DNA of 22,729 nucleotides, taken from the IMG/VR virus record IMGVR_UViG_3300024415_000919, positions 1 to 22,729 of that record. One strand, given 5' to 3'. The stretch comes from a virus. The notes beneath the pieces are model-generated. The model did no database searches and had not been told where the DNA came from. It saw nothing but the letters and a program-made list of their open reading frames with translations. The number at the start of each line of letters is the position of its first letter. Position 1 is the first letter of the stretch. The position numbers and the translations under genes are program-made. This document shows, piece after piece, positions 3,228 to 22,729 of this stretch.

Positions 3228-3503
3228 ATGAACAAATCAGAGTTTGTAAAACATGTCGCCAATCAACATAGCATTACTCAAGACGAAGCTAATAAAGTAA
3301 TTGATACTTTTACCAGTAGCGTCATCTCCGCTCTAGGTGAAGGTAATGAAATACAGCTAGTTGGCTTTGGTAATTTCTCGGTATCAGAAGTTGCAGCAAG
3401 AGCAGGACGTAATCCAAAAACTGGTGAGGTTTTGCAGATTGCAGCATATAAACAACCTAGGTTTAAGGTTGGACAGAAATTGAAGAACGCTGTTAATAAG
3501 TAA
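3228..3503 (+). CDS. hup: HU-family nucleoid DNA-binding protein
   Basis: At 91 aa it has the standard HU length and layout: an N-terminal helical dimerisation part (MNKSEFVKHVA, ending near ALGEGNEIQLVGFGNF) and the DNA-binding arm with GRNPKTGE at residues 60-67, followed by KQPRFKVGQKLKNAV. HU dimers bind and bend DNA with little sequence preference and compact the nucleoid. They also assist initiation at iteron origins and site-specific recombination, both relevant to this replicon. The start is fixed by AAGGAA ten bases upstream. The next gene follows after 29 bases, so HU may be transcribed with it. Small HU/IHF genes are common on Rickettsia plasmids. Confidence 0.93.
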   Translation: MNKSEFVKHVANQHSITQDEANKVIDTFTSSVISALGEGNEIQLVGFGNFSVSEVAARAGRNPKTGEVLQIAAYKQPRFKVGQKLKNAVNK

Positions 3504-3532: not shown

Positions 3533-4273
3533 ATGCAATACGACTATAGATACCTTAAACAAAGCACCAGAAGCGCAACTGAATATGATGAGGGCTTGCG
3601 TAAGTATTTCCTTAAAATATATCAACTAATGAGCGCAGGGCTTGCAATTACTGCCATTGCAGCCATAGCAGTTTTTACATTACCTACACTTACTAATTTA
3701 ATGTTTTCTACAGATGGATACGGGCATTATATGGGCTTAACTGGCTTTGGCTGGCTGATAAGTTTTGCACCACTAGGAATTTCTTTATATTTTGCCTTTG
3801 GTTACGACAGGATAAGTGCAGAAAATGCACAAATACTATTCTGGATATATGCTGCTCTTGTTGGCATGTCTCTAGCAGCACTGGGGCTAATATATACAGG
3901 AGCGTCAATAGCTAGAACATTCTTTGTCTGCTCTGCTATGTTTGGAGGCATGAGTCTATATGGATATTCAACTGGTAAAGATTTAACAGGCTTAGGTTCA
4001 TTCTTGTTTATGGGATTAATAGGACTTATGCTGACTTCTATAATCAATATATTCTTACAAAGCCCAGCTATAGAATACGCATTATCAGTAATTGGGGTGA
4101 TTATTTTTACAGGACTAATTGCCTATGATACGCAGAAGCTAAAGAATATTTACTATAGTGGGCATGACGCTAGTGGTAAAGTTGGAATCATGGGAGCATT
4201 TACTCTATACCTTGACTTTATCAATTTGTTTGTATTCTTAATGAGATTCTTAGGAGTAAAAAGAAATGACTGA
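3533..4273 (+). CDS. Bax inhibitor-1/YccA family membrane protein
   Basis: The 246-aa protein has a short polar N-terminus (about 1-30) and then about seven hydrophobic segments, for example SAGLAITAIAAIAVFTLPTL, GMSLAALGLIYTGA and LTSIINIFLQSPAIEYALS. It ends with the family-typical block LIAYDTQKLKNIY and then LYLDFINLFVFLMRFLG. The conserved Asp residues in AYDTQ and LYLDFIN match the proposed di-aspartate pH sensor and calcium-leak site of TMBIM/YetJ proteins. It should sit in the inner membrane. In alphaproteobacteria these proteins are linked to membrane and protease homeostasis. GAGGA precedes the ATG, and the stop overlaps the gapR start by 8 nt, indicating co-translation. Its presence beside replication genes is unusual. 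Confidence 0.88.
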   Translation: MQYDYRYLKQSTRSATEYDEGLRKYFLKIYQLMSAGLAITAIAAIAVFTLPTLTNLMFSTDGYGHYMGLTGFGWLISFAPLGISLYFAFGYDRISAENAQILFWIYAALVGMSLAALGLIYTGASIARTFFVCSAMFGGMSLYGYSTGKDLTGLGSFLFMGLIGLMLTSIINIFLQSPAIEYALSVIGVIIFTGLIAYDTQKLKNIYYSGHDASGKVGIMGAFTLYLDFINLFVFLMRFLGVKRND

Positions 4274-5343: not shown

Positions 5344-5913
5344 CTATGACTCTTGCTCTTTCATTCCACGCACATATTTATACAAAGTCGGCTTTGAGAT
5401 CCCCACAGTCTCGCATATTTGCTTGATTGAGTGCTTACGTCCGTTATACAGATCAACTGCCAGCTTTCTCTTGTTTTCGTTTAGCTTCAAAGGCCTTCCC
5501 CCTTCTCTGCCTCTAGCACGTGCTGCCTCAAGCCCCGCCTTAGTTCTCTCTTTGATAAGGTTATGCTCAAATTCTGATAAAGCACCAAAAATGTGTACAA
5601 AGAGCTTGCCTGTTGAGGTACTGGTATTAATTCCTTCGCAAATACTCTCAAAGCCTATATTGTTCTGTGCAAACCATTCAGTCCAGCTAATAAGGTCTTT
5701 TAAAGAACGACCAAGCCTATCTAGTCGCCATACAACGAAAGTATCGCCAGAACGCAAAGTATGCTCTTTAGCTTTTAGTAATTCTTCTCTATTAGCAATT
5801 GAGCCACTAGCTTGTTCTGTAATTATTTTTCCGCAACCAGCTTTCTTGAGTGCGTCAATTTGCGAGTCTAGATTTTGAGTAATTGTTGATACTCGGGCAT
5901 AGCCTATTTTCAT
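5344..5913 (-). CDS. Serine site-specific recombinase (resolvase/invertase family)
   Basis: The 189-aa protein has the catalytic domain first: YARVST with nucleophile S9, EQASGS, and WRLDRLGRS with R66 and R69. A long helix follows (LIKERTKAGLEAARARGREGGRPLKL), then a C-terminal helix-turn-helix at about 155-183 (SIKQICETVGISKPTLYKYV). This is the length and order of Tn3 resolvases and DNA invertases. On plasmids these enzymes resolve multimers or invert segments. The start is supported by AGAGG before the ATG. The intergenic region 5914-6218 upstream would be the natural place for its recombination site, but no clear three-subsite array was recognised. Pin-type genes are typical of Rickettsia plasmids. 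Confidence 0.92.
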   Translation of the reverse strand: MKIGYARVSTITQNLDSQIDALKKAGCGKIITEQASGSIANREELLKAKEHTLRSGDTFVVWRLDRLGRSLKDLISWTEWFAQNNIGFESICEGINTSTSTGKLFVHIFGALSEFEHNLIKERTKAGLEAARARGREGGRPLKLNENKRKLAVDLYNGRKHSIKQICETVGISKPTLYKYVRGMKEQES

Positions 5914-12493: not shown

Positions 12494-12649
12494 GGCCGAT
12501 AAAAGAAAGAACATGCTAGCATTCTTTTTAGAGGCTAAAAAAAAGCATTCCACGCTTTCCCCAGAAGGCGGGGAAATGCTCTTAAGATACTATTAAGTAT
12601 CTATTAGGAAAAATGCCCCTCTAGAGCCCTATTGAAGACTGGGCTTCAA
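12494..12649. other. Hairpin cluster of origin-like region B
   Basis: Within the 470-base gene-free stretch 12343-12812 this part holds four hairpins. First, GCC..ATAAAAGAA pairs with TTCTTTTTA..GGC (12495-12534). Second, TTTCCCC/GGGGAAA with loop AGAAGGC (12556-12576), flanked by AGCATT/AATGCT. Third, AGATACT-ATTA-AGTATCT (12585-12602). Fourth, TTGAAG/CTTCAA (12632-12649). The same order of blocks occurs at 16761-16896 beside the other Rep-like gene. Such hairpins near an origin can be primase start sites, terminators or Rep-binding cruciforms; which applies is unknown. Confidence 0.55.
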
Positions 12650-12658
12650 AAAAACGAT

Positions 12659-12743
12659 TTGCCGGTTAGTGTACGTTTTTTGGTGTTTTGTTGCCGGTTA
12701 GTGTACGTTTTTTGGTATTTCTTGCCGGTTAGTGTACGTTTTT
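12659..12743. repeat. Iteron array B: three repeats at 31-32 bp spacing
   Basis: GCCGGTTAGTGTACGTTTTT occurs identically at 12661, 12693 and 12724, each preceded by TT. The spacings of 32 and 31 bp equal about three helical turns, which puts the repeats on one face of the DNA. The array lies 69 bases beyond the stop of the 325-aa Rep-like gene and next to a T/A-rich segment (12744-12800). Identical long repeats beside a Rep gene are the standard sign of an iteron origin. Confidence 0.85.
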
Positions 12744-12812
12744 ATCTAACAGGAGTAAATTTTTTTATACTTATTTAACTAAAAAATACAGTAATTAATT
12801 GCTACCATACTG

Positions 12813-13790
12813 TTAGGATTTGGACTTACTGATTGCAGTTCTTGATTTTATAGGCTTTATATGGGTATTCATTAAATCTACATACTCTTTTGTAAAATCA
12901 TATTTGATATAAAGGTTTATAAAAGTATTAAAATCATCGTTCTCAATGAGTTCTAGTTCTTTATCATTAAGAGGTTCTCCTTTAGCTTTACAATACTCCC
13001 AGCGTATTTGTTCCTCTAGAAAATGCATATCCCTATTAAAAGCTTGAACCACATCTCTTTTTTTCTGCTGTGATTTTTCCCAATCTTTTAACTTAGGACA
13101 TTCTTTGAGAAGGCTTTTTATGGAAATAACATTATTATGATTCTTATTAAAATTAATACGATCATACTCTGTTATTTTTCTACCTAAGGAATAACTATTA
13201 GGATTTGTTTTAAAATTACATTGTAAAACAACAATGGGCATCAACATTCTTTTCATGTTATTGGAGCTTAACATGTCATAAAATTTGTCACCTAACGTTG
13301 TAATCATCTCTCTATTTTTAATATCATAATCCTGACACAAGCGCATTTCTTTGCATTCATCAGATTTTACGCCCTTTTGAGATTGATATGATACTGAACA
13401 CCTATAAAATATATCTAAATCTGTTCTTAATTGCTTTCGTGCATGCCTTACACTGTCCAGATTACACATTTTCATATAATCTCTTACTTTTATTTTTATT
13501 GCTTTATTTGGGGTAAAACTTTCAGAAAATTTTATTAAAATAATATCAATCATCCTAAAGAAAGAAGCACGCAGATCTTTTACTGACAAATCGCTATATT
13601 GATGAATATATAAAGTAAAAGAACCCCTTGCTAATTTTGCATGACCGGTAATGTTATCGATCTCAATACCATCAGATACAAAGGTTCTTGACATATTATT
13701 AGTAACATTGTTCTGCACCAACCATTTATGACTTTGGCTTGCTTGATTGTGTTTTATATCTAATTCAGTTTTTAAAAGGTCAGACGGCAT
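12813..13790 (-). CDS. Plasmid replication initiator-like protein (two winged helices)
   Basis: The 325-aa protein has the two-part pattern of iteron-binding Rep proteins. A first winged-helix region lies at about 55-135 (AIKIKVRDYMKMCNLDSVRHARKQLRTDLDIFYRCS) and a second at about 196-270 (NPNSYSLGRKITEYDRINF, NVISIKSLLKECPKLKDWE). The second region parallels NPYAWAIGWKI...VFSISIKNLLEVC of the 529-aa protein, so the two are related. Its start overlaps the 261-aa gene by 11 nt. Three identical long repeats follow its stop codon, the probable binding sites. Identification as Rep rests on this layout and the adjacent iterons; no single catalytic motif is expected. Confidence 0.72.
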   Translation of the reverse strand: MPSDLLKTELDIKHNQASQSHKWLVQNNVTNNMSRTFVSDGIEIDNITGHAKLARGSFTLYIHQYSDLSVKDLRASFFRMIDIILIKFSESFTPNKAIKIKVRDYMKMCNLDSVRHARKQLRTDLDIFYRCSVSYQSQKGVKSDECKEMRLCQDYDIKNREMITTLGDKFYDMLSSNNMKRMLMPIVVLQCNFKTNPNSYSLGRKITEYDRINFNKNHNNVISIKSLLKECPKLKDWEKSQQKKRDVVQAFNRDMHFLEEQIRWEYCKAKGEPLNDKELELIENDDFNTFINLYIKYDFTKEYVDLMNTHIKPIKSRTAISKSKS

Positions 13791-14565
13791 CGTTATCGGG
13801 TTTTAATATTTTAATTATGGAATTAATTTTGTGCTGTTTAAATAGATGAGGCAAAGACTCTTTTGCTTGTAATATACAAGGCTCTGTCGGTTCTAAATCC
13901 ACAATGTTGAGTTTTGGGAATATTTGATTTGTCAGCATTTTTTTTACTTTCCTTATGTCCTTATCCCCAGTTAATATAGATTTTAACTTTTTTACATCGT
14001 TATTCAAACGCATCAAAGTATGTTCAAAATGTTCTGTTTTTACAGTAAAAACATTTTGTATTTCTACTATGTCAAAAAAATCAGCAAACAATTCAACCGC
14101 AGTATTGAACGTCATAACACGAGCTAAACATATTCTCAGAGCGTCTCTTGAAACAGATAAATAATGTTGAAGAGTGAAATTTGTGTTGTATTCATCAAAA
14201 ACAGAAAGGGACTTTATTATAGAATCCAGTTGAGTATTAGCATTCTTGACAGCTATAATTTGTTCAGCATAAATTGTCTGCTGCAATCTATTTTTAACTT
14301 CAGATAGTAAGTGATATGCCTGATATGAGTTAGCTCTCGCAGCATTATAACTAATGTGCAACCAGTTAATAAAAGTTTTATAACATTCAAAATGTTCAGA
14401 ATCTTCTTGGCTTTTAAGTTTGGAGCATAATATTCTAATATCTTGATCTGTAACAAGGCTTTTATTTTTGTAAACAATTGATAACTCTTGCAGCAAAAAA
14501 ATTCTGCCTACTTCATCACCTGTTAGGCTATCTTTTTTTAACAAAGAAGTAATATCAAATTCCAT
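13780..14565 (-). CDS. Hypothetical helical protein coupled to the 325-aa Rep-like gene
   Basis: The 261-aa protein is mostly helical (MEFDITSLLKKDSLTGDEVGRIFLLQEL, SYQAYHLLSEVKNRLQQTIYAEQIIAVKN, LMRLNNDVKKLKSIL) and has no motif I recognise. Its stop overlaps the Rep-like start (11 nt), so the two are translationally coupled. The related 529-aa Rep-like protein carries a helical N-terminal extension of about 235 residues. This ORF may therefore be the separated counterpart of that extension, although I see no convincing direct alignment. A possible leftward promoter is TTGATC, 16 bp, TATAGT at about 14660-14690. Confidence 0.62.
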   Translation of the reverse strand: MEFDITSLLKKDSLTGDEVGRIFLLQELSIVYKNKSLVTDQDIRILCSKLKSQEDSEHFECYKTFINWLHISYNAARANSYQAYHLLSEVKNRLQQTIYAEQIIAVKNANTQLDSIIKSLSVFDEYNTNFTLQHYLSVSRDALRICLARVMTFNTAVELFADFFDIVEIQNVFTVKTEHFEHTLMRLNNDVKKLKSILTGDKDIRKVKKMLTNQIFPKLNIVDLEPTEPCILQAKESLPHLFKQHKINSIIKILKPDNDAV

Positions 14566-14720
14566 GTTCGTTTATCTAATTATAAGGTGTCTATTTCCTG
14601 TATTTAAGCTAGATGTATATTCAGGGCTAATTGCTTGACTTGCTTTAATCATTGAATTTACTATATATTGCTTAAAACAAAGATCAACTTATCGCACAAA
14701 TAACCCTTATCTTTTTTTTG

Positions 14721-16730
14721 TTACCCAGAATTAAAAACAGCGGAGTATTTTTTATTACATTCACTAAATACATTAAACATAGGGTAATATTGATATTCTA
14801 TTGTTGACCCAGTTTCTCCATTCCTATTTTTTAATATTTTTAATTCTATTTCTCTAGGGTAAGCTTTCTTCGCTGCATCGACATCAAAATTTTTATTACC
14901 TGCTCCTTTTAACTGCAAACCTATTAGAACATCGGAACTATATTCAATAGCTCCACTTTCTTTAAAAGCATCCATGGTTATTGACTCCTTATAACTTGCA
15001 CGATTTAAGCTACTGACAACAATTACTGGAGTTTTAAAATCCCTACTTATACGTTTCAGCTCTAAAACTGCCTTATCCGTATTTTGTTTGTCCGTGGCTT
15101 TTGGATTATCTGGGGCTATTATCTGTAAGTAGTCAATTATTAGTATAGGCGTATTGCCAGTAAATTTTATGTGCTCTTCTATAAAAGACTTAATTTTTTC
15201 TACACCTATATCTCCTATTCCTTCATGTATATATAGATTCGAAGAATACGCTTTGTAGTTATCAGTAGCAGACTGTATTACTTTTTTATCTTCTTCTCTG
15301 TAGTTATCATATCTACGACCATCTAAAATACCTCTTATAGTTTTTGCATTTCTTGTGTCTATGTCATGCTCAGCACAATGTAATGACGTTTCTCTACTAA
15401 TACTCTTACCCATTAATTCATATTTGGACATTTCTAACGAACAATAAAGCACGTCTTGGCCTTGCTTCGCTAAGTGGTCTGCAATCTGTAGTATAAAAGT
15501 TGTTTTACCCAAAGAACTTATTGCTCCTATTGCATAAAGCCCCTCAAACAAGCTATTTCCTAATTTATCATCTAATTGCTCAAAGCTTGTAGAAATATAT
15601 TTTTTCCCTCGTCTAGATTGTATATAATCTTGAAAATCACTAATTGCAGAATACGCAGTAATCTTTTGGTATTCCTGCCTTGCGATCTCTTCTGCTTCTA
15701 TGCTAGCCTGTAAATTAATATCGATCTCTTCTTGTAAAGAATGTATAGCAGTAGTTGCTTTTTCTACAAAAAGTTTTTTTTCATTTTGTAAAAATTCATT
15801 TGCATCTTTATAATTATGATAAATATCTTCTGGGGTAAAATACTTAATATTTATTTTTGTTAGCTTATCTTCTAAACGTGCGCTTGCTTCTTTTCCTGCA
15901 TTGTCATTATCTAAGGCAATTACAAGAGGTGATTTAGCATTGAATTTTTGAAGAGCATTACAAAAGATATCAACATATGACGTACTACCAACGCTTACTG
16001 CATTAAATCCAAGCTCTAGAAAACTTAAAGCATCAAGTTCGCTCTCTACAACAAAACAAGGTTTATCTTCTGTGGTTGCCTCTATATTAAAGATTCTTAC
16101 CTTACCTATTTTGAGTTTTTGATTTGTTTTTACATTTATTGCTGTGTAGTGATCTATACTAGCTGGGATTATTAATCTTGGTGAGGGGTAACTAGGTTTT
16201 CCATCGCTTGTATTTTTTTGCAAGGATTGTGGCAAAGTCCATTGTTCCACATAACCTAAATTATATCGTTTAGCTGTTTCTATACTAATCCCTCTTTTTT
16301 CTAAATAATCAGCAGATAACTTTTGACTTATGTTAGAGTTAGCTTCTTGATAAAATGTACTATAGTCTATTTTTTTATCGTCAGTTTCCCGTGTGTAAAC
16401 TGGTTTACTAACGGATAATGTTTTAGCCTTTAAAGAAAGGTTGTCATTTGTGTCTTCTACAGTCAAATTTAATATTTCATAAACTTTATCAAATTTATCT
16501 TTCTCATCTGATATTCCATATTCATTGCCTACTAAGTCGAATATGTCATAGCTTGCATCACAACCAAAACATTTCACTCTATTTCTACTTGAGTCATAAC
16601 TCATACTAGGATTTTTGTCTTCATGGTCATGGCTTAAACACCTAAATGGCTTACGTGTGTTAATTCCTTTTCTCTGCAAATATTCTTGCAGCCTTGTTTT
16701 AGCAATTTCTTTTGCCTCTGATCGATTCAT
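14721..16730 (-). CDS. Bifunctional DNA primase-helicase (T7 gp4/DnaG-DnaB-like)
   Basis: The 669-aa protein combines three parts. The first is a primase zinc finger (C31, H34, C54, C57). The second is a TOPRIM domain with CFVVESELDALS (E229) and IALDNDNAGKEA (D274, D276) at about 222-300. The third is a RecA-like replicative helicase at about 380-650, with Walker A GAISSLGKT (402-410), YCSLEMS and Walker B LIIDYLQI (D533), then VIVVSSLNR and KNRNGETG near the end. This is the gp4/phage-plasmid type that both primes and unwinds at the fork, making the replicon less dependent on host DnaB and DnaG. It begins directly after origin-like region C, and its ATG is followed within a few codons by a basic helical segment (KTRLQEYLQRKG). 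Full length, no damage seen. Confidence 0.95.
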   Translation of the reverse strand: MNRSEAKEIAKTRLQEYLQRKGINTRKPFRCLSHDHEDKNPSMSYDSSRNRVKCFGCDASYDIFDLVGNEYGISDEKDKFDKVYEILNLTVEDTNDNLSLKAKTLSVSKPVYTRETDDKKIDYSTFYQEANSNISQKLSADYLEKRGISIETAKRYNLGYVEQWTLPQSLQKNTSDGKPSYPSPRLIIPASIDHYTAINVKTNQKLKIGKVRIFNIEATTEDKPCFVVESELDALSFLELGFNAVSVGSTSYVDIFCNALQKFNAKSPLVIALDNDNAGKEASARLEDKLTKINIKYFTPEDIYHNYKDANEFLQNEKKLFVEKATTAIHSLQEEIDINLQASIEAEEIARQEYQKITAYSAISDFQDYIQSRRGKKYISTSFEQLDDKLGNSLFEGLYAIGAISSLGKTTFILQIADHLAKQGQDVLYCSLEMSKYELMGKSISRETSLHCAEHDIDTRNAKTIRGILDGRRYDNYREEDKKVIQSATDNYKAYSSNLYIHEGIGDIGVEKIKSFIEEHIKFTGNTPILIIDYLQIIAPDNPKATDKQNTDKAVLELKRISRDFKTPVIVVSSLNRASYKESITMDAFKESGAIEYSSDVLIGLQLKGAGNKNFDVDAAKKAYPREIELKILKNRNGETGSTIEYQYYPMFNVFSECNKKYSAVFNSG

Positions 16731-16760
16731 AAATGATCTCCTGTTTTAAAATTAGACATT

Positions 16761-16896
16761 GCCTATAAAAGAAAATTTCTTTTTACAGGCCTATTGCTAT
16801 CATAGCAAAGCCTTTCATAGCCCCTGCGTATGAAAAGGCTCTTAAAATGTACTAAAAAGTACTAAAGCGTTTTAGCAAAAAAAATTTACACCCCTC
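16761..16896. other. Hairpin cluster of origin-like region C
   Basis: Between array C and the primase-helicase gene are four hairpins. GCCTATAAAAGAAA pairs with TTTCTTTTTACAGGC (16761-16790). TTGCTAT-C-ATAGCAA follows (16794-16808). GCCTTTCATA pairs with TATGAAAAGGC around a GCCCCTGCG loop (16810-16839). GTACT-AAAA-AGTAC comes last (16849-16862). GCTCTTAA (16838) and CCCCTC (16891) recur at matching places in region B (12578 and 12616). With the iterons this fills the gene-free stretch 16731-17090. Confidence 0.55.
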
Positions 16897-16899
16897 AAT

Positions 16900-17009
16900 A
16901 GCATATGATTACTAGGTTTTCAGCATATGAATTTGAAGCGATGTACTGAACCAACTGGGGGGCGATACTGAACCAACTGGGGGTCAATACTGAACCAACT
17001 GGGGGGTGA
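16900..17009. repeat. Iteron array C: five 22-bp units (two plus three)
   Basis: TACTGAACCAACTGGGGG occurs identically at 16944, 16966 and 16988, exactly 22 bp apart. In the same 22-bp phase, AGCATATGA occurs at 16900 and 16922, so the array seems to be five units of two types. It lies about 80 bases past the stop of the 529-aa Rep-like gene and before the hairpins that precede the primase-helicase gene. An AT-rich stretch with TATATGG and AATATTATTTAA follows at 17015-17045. Strong candidate for Rep binding sites. Confidence 0.85.
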
Positions 17010-17090
17010 TTTTCGATATATGGCGCAAATAAATATTATTTAACTTTGTTAGCATTTAAAACCTCCTTTTGCTCAATTGGTGACCCTTTT

Positions 17091-18680
17091 TTATTTTATT
17101 ACTTTCTTTTTTTTGGCAGCTTCGTCTGTTTTTTTAATTTGTTTCTTATCGAATTTAGGAATTTGTTTTAAATATTCTTGTGGCAACTCTATAATTATTT
17201 TTCTCTTTTTCCATTCTGAAAACTTTTTATTTTTTTCTATACTATACGAATCGCTTTCTGGATTATCATTTGCTATTTCTATATAATCTTGCACCGCATT
17301 ACCTTGTTTATCCTCATAGTGCCATTTGGTAATTACCCCTATATCTATCAATAGGTCTAAATCTCTTTCTATTGGCGATATAATTAATTTGCTGATGTGT
17401 TGAGACGTGTTATTTACTTTTTTGTAGCTAGGCAGTCCTGATCTTTGACATACTTCCAATAAGTTTTTGATACTTATAGAAAAAACATTATTTGGCTTCT
17501 CGTCCTTATACCGATTGAAATTAGCTTGAAAATTAATTTTCCAGCCAATTGCCCATGCATACGGGTTTTTAACTCTATTAGATGTTATAGAAAATAAATT
17601 ATTATTTATTGGCATAATATTACTTTTACTTAATAAATATCCTTTTATTCCTTCTTCATTAAATCTAAAGTACACTATGCTGTTCTCAATTTTAGCTATT
17701 GAAATCAACGGCGCACCTAAATAAGAAAACTTTCCCTTTACATCTTTTCCTTTTGTTCTTATTGACGTGTTGAGAAGATTATCGAATGACAGTACAATGG
17801 ATTCTCTTGCCTTCTTGATATTAGTTTTCCCTAATATGCTTGCTAATTCTTTCAAGGGGATTGAGATTGTTCTAGTTTCGCCATCAGTTATTTTTTGTAG
17901 CATCACTGCTAATATTTTGGATTCAGATTGAGCTAACTTTACATTACATCCATTCAGTATAATATCTAAGGATGTTTTCGGACTAGTGGCTGTGATTATT
18001 TTTGCTTTTGTTATTGGGTCTACTTCCATTTCCATTTTATCGGTTGAAGTAAGTAATAAATCAATAAAACCACTCTGCAAAATTTTTACATATTTTTGAT
18101 CTATATCATTTGTGCTTGTATTACTTTTTTTACGTTCTTCTCTCCATGCTTTTTCTGATATGATCAAAACTTCATACATAGTATCTAAAGCATCAAGAAA
18201 ATATCGCCTATGCTCTTCGCAATATTTAGCATTGGTTAGCATTTCAGTAAGAAGTTTTTTGCCATAATCTTTTTTATCAAAACCTTCTAAAATAAGATCG
18301 TTTACTTTTAGAAACCAAAAATCTACAAACTCTCCCTTATCTATTGGGATATAACTATAGCAATCACTATGTTTTTTAAAGACTGATTGAATATTTTGTA
18401 CACAATGTTTAATTGATTTTATCACTGCATCAACTTGACTAAAATAACTTTCAATTTGTTGAGGTGTAAATTTACCTTTATTCTGCTTCGGTAAGTAACA
18501 CTGCTCATATTCATGGTATAAATTTTTAATATTTTCTTGCTCTTTTTGATTTATTTGAATCTCCCTAAAATCTTCATTTTGTTTTGTTATATCAGAGAAT
18601 TTTATATTTATTACTCTGTCCTGATATTCAAATGGTCTATTTTCCCATTCTGTTTCTACACTTTTACGTTGCTTTTCCAT
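17091..18680 (-). CDS. Plasmid replication initiator-like protein with long N-terminal extension
   Basis: The 529-aa protein has a helical N-terminal region (about 1-235), then a Rep-like pair of winged helices. The first is near 240-310 (QSESKILAVMLQKITDGETRTISIPLKELASILGKTNIKKARESI) and the second near 372-450 (NPYAWAIGWKINFQANFNR, NVFSISIKNLLEVCQRSGLPSYKK). The C-terminus is very basic (KQIKKTDEAAKKKKVIK). The second winged helix parallels the 325-aa protein at 12813-13790. The start lies inside the end of the DnaA-like gene (25-nt overlap), so both initiators are probably co-translated. Array C follows its stop codon. The start codon at 18680 has only a weak GGA ribosome site, consistent with coupling. 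Confidence 0.74.
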   Translation of the reverse strand: MEKQRKSVETEWENRPFEYQDRVINIKFSDITKQNEDFREIQINQKEQENIKNLYHEYEQCYLPKQNKGKFTPQQIESYFSQVDAVIKSIKHCVQNIQSVFKKHSDCYSYIPIDKGEFVDFWFLKVNDLILEGFDKKDYGKKLLTEMLTNAKYCEEHRRYFLDALDTMYEVLIISEKAWREERKKSNTSTNDIDQKYVKILQSGFIDLLLTSTDKMEMEVDPITKAKIITATSPKTSLDIILNGCNVKLAQSESKILAVMLQKITDGETRTISIPLKELASILGKTNIKKARESIVLSFDNLLNTSIRTKGKDVKGKFSYLGAPLISIAKIENSIVYFRFNEEGIKGYLLSKSNIMPINNNLFSITSNRVKNPYAWAIGWKINFQANFNRYKDEKPNNVFSISIKNLLEVCQRSGLPSYKKVNNTSQHISKLIISPIERDLDLLIDIGVITKWHYEDKQGNAVQDYIEIANDNPESDSYSIEKNKKFSEWKKRKIIIELPQEYLKQIPKFDKKQIKKTDEAAKKKKVIK

Positions 18681-20353
18681 AATTTAATTTCCATTTTATT
18701 TATTCCAAATTTTGCTGCCACTTTACTCAAAAACGACAAATAAGTCTGCTCTATTCTATCTCTAACCATGCCACTACTTGTAGAAAGCTCAATAATGCCT
18801 TCTTTCTCAACGACGTTTAAAGGTTTTAGCCAGTGTTTATATAACTCCATGCCAAATTCTGCTACAAATTCAGTACAAATATTCCCCCATTTGCCTTTTG
18901 GGAGTTCTGGCTCTTGCTCCTTTTCTGGTTCTCTGAAATTACAATTACTAGCTATTGTCACAAACTCTAATTTATTAACTCCAGCATAGCCACCAATGCC
19001 TTTTGCATGATTCAGCAACGACTGTACTAGATTCTCACCTAAAGTAATTGGTTGATGCATTGTAACCTTCAAGACGTGTTCCTCTTTTTTAACCTCTACC
19101 ATGTTTGTGAGCAAGTCATAGGCTAGGTTGATCGGAAATTGCCCAGCTATACGAGCCTTATACTGCGTATAATCACACCTTGCATAGATTGCGGAGCTCT
19201 CAGTCTCATTGAGGTATTTTTCCTTCTCATGCAATAGTTTATCCTCCGCAGTCATACCAGCTAGAGTATAATAATTCTCTCCACCAACTTTATTCGGATC
19301 TCGTTTTTCTCGTATCAACGCTGGTATTAGGTAAGCTACAAGCCCGTTAATGTGGTAAAAAAATGCTTGCCTGCCACGCTCACTAGCTGCAATTGCTTTG
19401 GTTATCTCCTTGATCGCTTTATTGGTAAAAGCTCTACCTGAACCTGATCGTAGTTTTTCGCATATCTCGTCTGTCAAATACGGCTGTACCTCGCTTAAAC
19501 GCTTGCCTCCGCCTAGAAAACCATTACGAATGACATGGCAAGTTTTACGTTGTTTTTGCTCCTCTCGTGTTCTAGTTTTACGTTTATTTGCGGGGCGTGA
19601 TTTGACCTGTATAGGTGTAACCGTTGCGGGTGTAGGGCTTGTTGTTTCTACAATTTCTGGCTCATGAAGCGTTTCAGTTTGCTCCAGTGTTTGTGTATTA
19701 GCAGAAGAGTTTAAACTAATTCCTTTTGCTACCCCTGACGAATTTTCAACAAGTTCAGTGCTTGTATTTTTAGAATTAAAATTACTATTGGAAAAATTAG
19801 CTCTAGATCTTATTTTAATTTCATTAGAAATATTCTTATTATTTATAGATCGGGGCTTTTTTGCTGGGATGAATTCTGATTCTAATACACCTGCTTTCTT
19901 TAGTTCTTCGGTAATTGCTGGGTTTAATTTGAACACATAACAATATTCATAAAACTTGCCGTCTTTTAAATAAGCTCTTTCGTATTCTGCATGAAATAAA
20001 TTATCTAGCTGTTTTATATGCCTTTTATTCTGATCTGCTAAACAGTCAGTAATTGTATGTAAATATTTATGTGTAAGTATTACCTCTTCCTCTCCGTCAT
20101 AAGCTATTTTATTGAGGACAGTTTCGGCAATGAGAGTTGCTTTAGGGTGCAGCTTGCGTGTCTTGTCTGTTTTTTGTGTTTTTATTGCAACGCCAGCCCT
20201 TTGGAGCTTTTTTAGAACATGCCTACGATTTTTTATACGATATTTATAACTAAGGTATGTTTCTGTTTCTGGTAAGTATTTCTGAACTAGCTTTAATTTT
20301 GGTTCAGTTACTAGAGTTTCTTGCTCTTGGTTTATTTGTTGTGCGTATGCCAC
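18656..20353 (-). CDS. Rickettsia-plasmid-type replication protein with C-terminal DnaA_N domain
   Basis: The 565-aa protein starts at GTG with GAGG nine bases upstream. An N-terminal part (about 20-165) looks like a winged-helix module (TYLSYKYRIKNRRHVLKKL, LTHKYLHTITDCLADQNKRHI). A Thr/Pro-rich linker follows (about 170-265), then a conserved-looking central region. The C-terminal 78 residues (488-565) match DnaA domain I: KWGNICTEFVAEFG, YKHWLKPLNVV, IIELSTSSGMVRDRI. Domain I normally recruits DnaB, but here it is at the C-terminus and no AAA+ domain is present. DnaA-like proteins of this type are a hallmark of Rickettsia plasmids. It heads the minus-strand replication block. Confidence 0.85.
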   Translation of the reverse strand: MAYAQQINQEQETLVTEPKLKLVQKYLPETETYLSYKYRIKNRRHVLKKLQRAGVAIKTQKTDKTRKLHPKATLIAETVLNKIAYDGEEEVILTHKYLHTITDCLADQNKRHIKQLDNLFHAEYERAYLKDGKFYEYCYVFKLNPAITEELKKAGVLESEFIPAKKPRSINNKNISNEIKIRSRANFSNSNFNSKNTSTELVENSSGVAKGISLNSSANTQTLEQTETLHEPEIVETTSPTPATVTPIQVKSRPANKRKTRTREEQKQRKTCHVIRNGFLGGGKRLSEVQPYLTDEICEKLRSGSGRAFTNKAIKEITKAIAASERGRQAFFYHINGLVAYLIPALIREKRDPNKVGGENYYTLAGMTAEDKLLHEKEKYLNETESSAIYARCDYTQYKARIAGQFPINLAYDLLTNMVEVKKEEHVLKVTMHQPITLGENLVQSLLNHAKGIGGYAGVNKLEFVTIASNCNFREPEKEQEPELPKGKWGNICTEFVAEFGMELYKHWLKPLNVVEKEGIIELSTSSGMVRDRIEQTYLSFLSKVAAKFGINKMEIKLWKSNVKV

Positions 20354-21998: not shown

Positions 21999-22212
21999 TA
22001 CAGAAGAATTTATCTACAAAGGTTATTTTGAGGGTTTGAGCAAGCACGAAAGGTCAGTTCATATTCTCAAGTCAGAAAGTAATTCAACTCCTTACTACAT
22101 GTTTAAACTAGATAAAGACGTAGAAGTAGGGTCAAGGTTACTTGTTAGCTACAATCATACTTTTGCTTACAGAAAAGGTCAGTTTTTAGTTGGAGGTGTT
22201 TGTCATGAATAG
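21991..22212 (+). CDS. Hypothetical small protein B of the recombination operon
   Basis: From ATG at 21991, with GGAGG seven to eleven bases upstream, the product is 73 aa (MNSTEEFIYKGYFEGL to QFLVGGVCHE); an in-frame ATG at 21967 lacks a ribosome site. It looks beta-rich, with PYYMFKLDKDVEVGSRLLVSYN. The start overlaps the end of protein A and its stop overlaps the exonuclease start, so all these genes are translationally coupled. No known family. Confidence 0.7.
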   Translation: MNSTEEFIYKGYFEGLSKHERSVHILKSESNSTPYYMFKLDKDVEVGSRLLVSYNHTFAYRKGQFLVGGVCHE

Positions 22213-22729
22213 AGAACAATTTTTACTAGATCGTAAGAAAGGAATAGGAGGCTCTGATTGTGCATCTATCCTAGGAGTCTCGCCATTTCGCACGGCTTTA
22301 GAAGTTTACCACGATAAAACTAGTCCAGAGCTTGTACTTGAAGAGCCGACAGAAGATATGCAGCGTGGAGTACGTGTTGAGAAATACATACTACAAGAAT
22401 ATGCAGAACGCAGTGAAGTAGAACTTAACACTAATATTCCAACAATAGTTGATAAGCAATATCCATTCATGCGGGCTAACATTGACGCTAAAGTTATTGG
22501 CGCAAATGTCATAATAGAAGCAAAGTCAACAAAAGCCCCTATTTCTTCATGGGAGAGCGGAATACCAGAATATTACAAAGCACAAGTTGCTTATTATGCA
22601 ATGCTAACTGACGCTAATTATGTTGAGATACCAGTGTTATTTAGTGGCTGGAAATATGCCTGCTTTACTTATTGGAGAGACGCTGAGTACGAAGCCAGCA
22701 TAAAAGAGGCAGTAATAAATTTCTGGCAG
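22205..22729 (+). CDS. YqaJ-type viral recombinase/exonuclease (3' end beyond window)
   Basis: The visible 175 residues carry the YqaJ (lambda-exonuclease-like) pattern: RKKGIGGSDCASILGVSPF at 11-28, QRGVRVEKYI with E59, and the PD-(D/E)xK core with ANIDAKVI (D94) and IIEAKS (E105, K107). YYKAQVAYYAML, the helix that follows the core in this family, comes next. Such enzymes resect double-stranded ends and work with a single-strand annealing protein such as RecT/Bet, which would be expected just downstream, outside the window. GGAGG lies about ten bases before the ATG. The family's usual length is 200-320 aa, so roughly the N-terminal half to two-thirds is visible. Confidence 0.92.
   Translation, partial: MNREQFLLDRKKGIGGSDCASILGVSPFRTALEVYHDKTSPELVLEEPTEDMQRGVRVEKYILQEYAERSEVELNTNIPTIVDKQYPFMRANIDAKVIGANVIIEAKSTKAPISSWESGIPEYYKAQVAYYAMLTDANYVEIPVLFSGWKYACFTYWRDAEYEASIKEAVINFWQ

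Follow-up and report, generated by a model that had tools for sequence, protein, structure and literature searches.

A probable composite iteron replicon with two related Rep/origin modules and one primase-helicase on a likely Rickettsiales plasmid

The 22,729-base IMG/VR record IMGVR_UViG_3300024415_000919, a metagenomic contig (the window), probably carries a composite iteron replicon in which two pairs of origin and replication initiator (Rep), both of one type, would share a single primase-helicase. All parts of both modules are on the minus strand, where the order is rep529, three iterons, an element at 16897-16761, the primase-helicase, the open reading frame (ORF) ORF261, rep325, three iterons and a second element at 12621-12495; the repeated order of rep, iteron array and element on the same side, and the primase-helicase between the two modules, are as an initial annotation of this DNA had placed them. 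The features of module 2 (16761-18680), the intervening gene and module 1 (12495-14565) are as follows:

17091-18680, minus strand: rep529, module 2 initiator; residues ~195-505 modeled as the two-winged-helix RepE fold
16944-17004, minus strand: module 2 iterons, three copies of TACTGAACCAACTGGGG (starts 16944, 16966 and 16988; 22-bp period)
16847-16897, minus strand: module 2 putative melting region, resembling a DNA unwinding element; GAGGGGT (16890-16896), a T-tract, then repeats, with position and repeats as in relatives
16847-16866, minus strand: module 2 melting repeats, two 10-bp direct repeats TTTAGTACTT/TTTAGTACAT
16807-16842, minus strand: module 2 hairpin H1 (AGAGCCTTTTCATA...TATGAAAGGCTTT), in the same place in relatives
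16799-16807, minus strand: module 2 extended -10, TGCTATGAT, 7/8 to TGnTATAAT
16761-16790, minus strand: module 2 inverted repeat H2, GCCTGTAAAAAGAAA/TTTCTTTTATAGGC, conserved in the family
14721-16730, minus strand: primase-helicase (Toprim and DnaB_C with a weak zinc ribbon, from Pfam and aligned motifs)
13780-14565, minus strand: ORF261, companion protein family (iterated profile E 5e-63)
12813-13790, minus strand: rep325, module 1 initiator, RepE fold (mean predicted local distance difference test score of the model 85.8)
12660-12738, minus strand: module 1 iterons, three copies of TGCCGGTTAGTGTACG (starts 12660, 12692 and 12723; 32/31-bp period)
12585-12621, minus strand: module 1 putative melting region; GAGGGGC (12615-12621), then repeats
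12585-12606, minus strand: module 1 melting repeats, two 11-bp direct repeats TAATAGATACT/TAATAGTATCT
12537-12582, minus strand: module 1 hairpin H1 with T8 (terminator-like), the T8 at the place of the relatives' -10
12495-12535, minus strand: module 1 H2, imperfect inverted repeat GCCTCTAAAAAGAA...TTCTTTTATCGGC

The two modules have the same order of parts, but are they related in sequence and structure? Aligned without their iterons, the two elements reach a score of 37, where shuffles average 19.7 (standard deviation 2.9); none of 2000 dinucleotide shuffles attains it and no other segment of the window approaches it, so the likeness of the two hairpin regions that the initial annotation had noticed is upheld. 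Two of its details read differently now: its "hairpin with AGTA arms" is really a palindromic 10-11-mer that is directly repeated (TTTAGTAC-TT/TTTAGTAC-AT and TAATAGATACT/TAATAGTATCT), present in relatives as two to three direct repeats (TACTATTAAG, AGTACTTTT), and the CTTTC and CCCC pieces that it took for a shared motif are arms of H1, a hairpin of variable sequence. The iteron units TACTGAACCAACTGGGG and TGCCGGTTAGTGTACG are unrelated (71% of shuffles score as high), again as annotated.

Structure prediction gives both the 325-aa and the 529-aa protein, which had been described as sharing winged-helix blocks, the two-winged-helix fold of RepE-type iteron initiators, with helices and strands in the same order in the two models; Foldseek matches to RepE54 have E values of 5e-6 (rep325) and 3.9e-6 (rep529). 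The rep529 model is confident only in its C-terminal part, residues 1-190 being a low-confidence all-helical extension. Direct sequence similarity between the two is weak (E 0.012), and the sequence link runs through the Reps of Smac51 plasmids. By tblastn, rep529, which the family hidden Markov model also matches, is connected with a protein on a Smac51 plasmid (E 1e-9) and rep325 to a Streptococcus thermophilus plasmid Rep (E 1e-22). Neither protein reaches the gathering score of Rep_3 (PF01051; rep325 20.1 bits against 22.4, rep529 no match), which 11 of the 19 members of the Rep family alignment match at E<=0.01, although the features of that class, a RepE-like fold and iterons with an AT-rich melting region beside rep, are found. 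The homology of the two modules is thus supported by the modeled Rep fold, the shared element and the occurrence of the same arrangement in many plasmids. We also considered whether rep529 might be ORF261 fused to a Rep, and rejected this, as the companion profile gives no match in the rep529 N-terminus even at E 100. Upstream lies a 565-aa protein (18656-20353) that has a DnaA_N domain at its C-terminal end and overlaps the rep529 start.

The relatives were collected with two profiles. That of the primase-helicase gave 79 loci from genome contigs and a further 13 from viral contigs, of which two were only remote; an iterated profile of Rep gave 57 Rep ORFs, a few duplicate loci counted. These ~90 related loci come from Firmicutes, Spirochaetes, Synergistota, Elusimicrobia, Bacteroidota and Proteobacteria, and some are close relatives of one another (Streptococcus, Oscillibacter), so that the counts below are not all independent. 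Past Rep or before the primase-helicase they have a common layout of iterons (21-22 bp in most), an AT-rich stretch with direct repeats of 9-11 bp, the GC hairpin H1, usually an extended -10 and, in a subset, H2; the order Rep, iterons, melting repeats, H1, -10, (H2), primase-helicase is found in S. thermophilus pSMQ-316/pSMQ308 and many other loci. The reading that the window regions are no origins finds no support. The sequence of H1 varies and its place is fixed: a hairpin that outscores shuffles (p<=0.05) lies 60-130 bp from the iterons in 30 of 35 regions, starting at a median of 82 bp past them (interquartile range 73-90), the best-scoring hairpin lying within the melting repeats in some regions, where H1 was set by hand for later steps. 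TGnTATAAT is present at 7/8 or better in 13 of 31 loci against 0.18 expected. When 94 loci (927 kb) were scanned blindly for a hairpin joined to a TGnTATAAT-like site, there were 31 matches, among them ones in Synergistota, Elusimicrobiota, Bacteroidota and several Clostridia, and 27 of the 31 were at the origin position; shuffled loci gave 0-2. No locus except the window had two Reps within the stretch that was fetched.

Other searches and tests were negative or mixed. DnaA boxes and a generic promoter/terminator scan showed no excess, Rfam gave no match at gathering score and nothing relevant at E<=5, scans of viral contigs with single proteins found no relatives, and a DNA-pattern scan found, beyond S. 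thermophilus-like relatives, chance matches in genes. We found no specific Pfam or NCBIfam entry for this origin type and, in the literature searched, no paper describing it, though papers on the S. thermophilus plasmids may describe parts. Module 2 H1 folds with z values of -3.0 as RNA and -3.5 as DNA. A test of RNA against DNA by mismatch asymmetry gave 18 A-C and 4 G-T mismatches for H1, a difference that shrinks to a few independent groups, and a mixed result for H2; six H2 pairs have double changes (1 in 500 shuffles), a signal that other measures support only weakly, with no pairs predicted by RNAalifold. On the rep-sense strand, hand-picked H1 loops have TTT more often than AAA (20 and 4 of 34), which at most hints that the hairpin is strand-specific.

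Module 2 is the complete, standard form, with Rep, iterons, melting repeats, H1 and TGnTATAAT leading in pSMQ-316-like order into the primase-helicase. Module 1 has its Rep, the usual companion ORF261, iterons, melting repeats and H1, but departs from the family past H1: TGCTTTTTTTT stands in place of TGnTATAAT (best score 5/8), H2 is imperfect, and no primase-helicase follows. The initial annotation had missed this lack of a promoter and of an own primase-helicase, and the two modules are therefore not functionally equal. A similar pattern is seen in Smac51 plasmid 1 (L004), where the -10 is missing, H1 is kept and the primase-helicase is encoded elsewhere, on the opposite strand. The reverse is seen in L036, L018 and L052, where Rep is elsewhere and iterons and element stay together before the primase-helicase. 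Hence the iterons move together with the melting repeats and H1, and the -10 tends to follow the primase-helicase.

How might such a replicon work? RepE binds T-rich single strands of its melting region (PMC10797057), and from this known biology we propose that each Rep binds its own iterons, that the AT-rich stretch with its 9-11 bp direct repeats then melts, and that Rep holds one strand. The plasmid primase-helicase would be loaded at the melted region and prime beside H1, which may be a priming or loading site, act as an insulator, or belong to a promoter that is read once the DNA has opened. In module 2 and most relatives the extended -10 directly past H1, pointing away from the melting region, would drive the primase-helicase operon, and transcription leaving it should also under-wind the melting region. 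Lacking that promoter and a primase-helicase of its own, module 1 would have to borrow the enzyme made from module 2. Given the divergence of their iterons, it is plausible that the two modules do not interfere.

Part of this layout might be explained more simply if H1 and H2 were an ordinary regulatory leader, that is, a rep terminator followed by the promoter and 5' leader hairpin of the primase-helicase operon, with the origin confined to the iterons and AT-rich stretch. We consider this possible but the less probable explanation: the -10 is real and usually heads that operon, a T-run follows H1 in module 1 and L029, and H2 would sit at the transcript's 5' end, but the H1-iteron distance is nearly fixed, most H1 copies are without a T-tract, and H1 is kept without a -10 or primase-helicase in module 1 and L004. 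It is similarly doubtful that module 1 is a decaying relic and only module 2 still fires; although the missing -10, imperfect H2, odd iteron period and lack of an own primase-helicase would fit decay, rep325 and ORF261 are intact and overlapping, the iterons are near-identical and H1 is retained. An unlikely further idea is that H1 and the abutting TGnTATAAT form an opening-dependent promoter: Rep would melt the repeats, the single strand would fold into H1 and expose the -10, and RNA polymerase would fire only at an opened origin, making a primer RNA and/or the primase-helicase message. If true, such a start-site switch would have been conserved across several phyla, with module 1 having lost it.

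Did one module give rise to the other within this plasmid? The initial annotation had proposed an ancestral module "duplicated or captured twice"; the common ancestry stands, and of the two routes, capture twice is favored. In a 30-row Rep tree rep529 groups with L099 (98/94) and not with rep325, and the approximately unbiased (AU) test rejects a clade formed by rep325 and rep529 (p=0.019), so that two captures fit better than a local duplication; this evidence is moderate, since the branches are long, a weakness of the model that the AU test shares, and the clade was tested after the first tree had been seen. Duplication followed by fast divergence would account for the tandem modules on one strand and for both Reps being in the same 8-row clade (97/93), but iterons, iteron periods and upstream proteins all differ between the modules, and we consider it improbable. 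A mis-assembly of two related plasmids, conceivable for a metagenomic contig with a pair of Reps that 0 of 94 relative loci match within their fetched stretches, is very improbable, as gene order is continuous on one strand with short gaps, base composition is even across the contig, and the modules are too different to have been joined through shared DNA.

Besides the metagenomic origin of the contig, some observations weigh against the composite replicon that we prefer. rep529 has a long N-terminal extension and the DnaA_N-domain protein upstream where relatives have the companion ORF, and module 2 may therefore load its helicase differently. L029, L035, L054, L071, L094 and L105 have no clear -10 despite a downstream primase-helicase, so the rule that the -10 follows that gene is not strict, and our scripts did not find iterons or H1 in every locus.

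The primase-helicase has zinc ribbon, Toprim and DnaB_C in one chain, as in T7 gp4 (DnaB_C 6.5e-31, Toprim_2 4.8e-15); Zn_ribbon_DnaG is just below its cut-off (3.8e-5; 23.9 bits against 24.9), and the zinc-ribbon cysteines align. The companion family, with an N-terminal G-x-E/D-x-GR motif, has no Pfam match above cut-off for ORF261 or its relatives; its ORF is directly upstream of rep, usually overlapping it, in ~18 relatives (family loci: window 13780-14565, L003, L004, L005, L018, L022, L023, L026, L036, L038, L086, L099, L100 and L102). It is a possible helicase loader or Rep partner.

Among known systems, S. thermophilus pSMQ-316/pSMQ308 are closest in layout, with a Rep 25-27% identical to rep325, four 22-bp iterons, melting repeats ACTATTAAG, H1, TGCTATACT, H2 and then a primase-helicase ~43% identical as protein; they differ in having a single module, different iterons and a Firmicutes host. 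RepE/mini-F and other Rep_3 initiators share the fold (Foldseek E 4e-6 to 5e-6) and iterons beside an AT-rich melting region, but in the window rep325 is below the Pfam cut-off, rep529 has no meaningful Pfam match, the origin is downstream of rep and the plasmid has its own primase-helicase. RSF1010 oriV has iterons, an AT-rich region, the priming hairpins ssiA/ssiB beside the melted region, and plasmid-encoded primase and helicase. The window resembles it in its iterons, AT-rich region, a hairpin beside the putative melting region, and plasmid-encoded primase and helicase, with a different primase type and one hairpin followed by a promoter; by this analogy H1, which folds as DNA, is a candidate ssi-type priming hairpin. 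In Frpo-type single-strand promoters the -35 and -10 are held within a hairpin stem. Frpo promoters of conjugative plasmid leading regions (e.g., PMC11541004) likewise join a promoter element to a hairpin, but here the -10 is directly 3' of the stem and not inside it, no -35 is evident, and the site is in a replication origin rather than a transfer leading region. More than one replicon of different Rep specificity is also carried on one molecule by multireplicon plasmids (e.g., IncF, PMC12992427); the window's two belong to a single origin type and are separated by ~4 kb, in which the one primase-helicase lies. The comparison defines from sequence an origin type common to plasmids of several phyla, together with a companion family without a Pfam match. 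In the window, nature has combined two origins of this type, whose Reps differ and which apparently depend on one primase-helicase, so that it becomes testable what a Rep has to provide in cis and which functions two origins can share.

Some loci with this primase-helicase look different upstream of it. In L049, L053, L057 and L059 the place of the iterons is taken by long imperfect inverted-repeat arrays (AAACGCATTT...TTGCGTTTA), which may mark a different origin type. L032, L034, L037, L039-L041, L044-L046 and L048, nearly all Treponema, share a conserved variant in which ACGTGGAA repeats are accompanied by CCTAAGAGCTTATTATATAGC and a short hairpin; it ends in GGTGGGGACC just before the start codon and has no clear TGnTATAAT. 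L060 has primase-helicase fragments at both ends of its stretch around one Rep, and its source contig may be circular or have two primase-helicases.

The window is likely part of a plasmid from Rickettsiales (Candidatus Megaera-like), since its ParA is 71% identical to that of a Candidatus Megaera polyxenophila plasmid and the DnaA_N-domain protein is similar only to Megaera plasmid proteins in the collection searched, which agrees with the earlier guess of a Rickettsiales plasmid. No virus structural genes were recognized among the proteins examined, a search that covered part of the window's ORFs. By inspection there are a transposase at the left edge (3-968), an HsdS-like protein (1217-2167), HU (3228-3503), a Bax-inhibitor-1-like membrane protein (3533-4273, also supported by tblastn), a resolvase (5344-5913) and a YqaJ-like exonuclease at the right edge (22190-22729), and by these genes the window looks more plasmid-like than viral.

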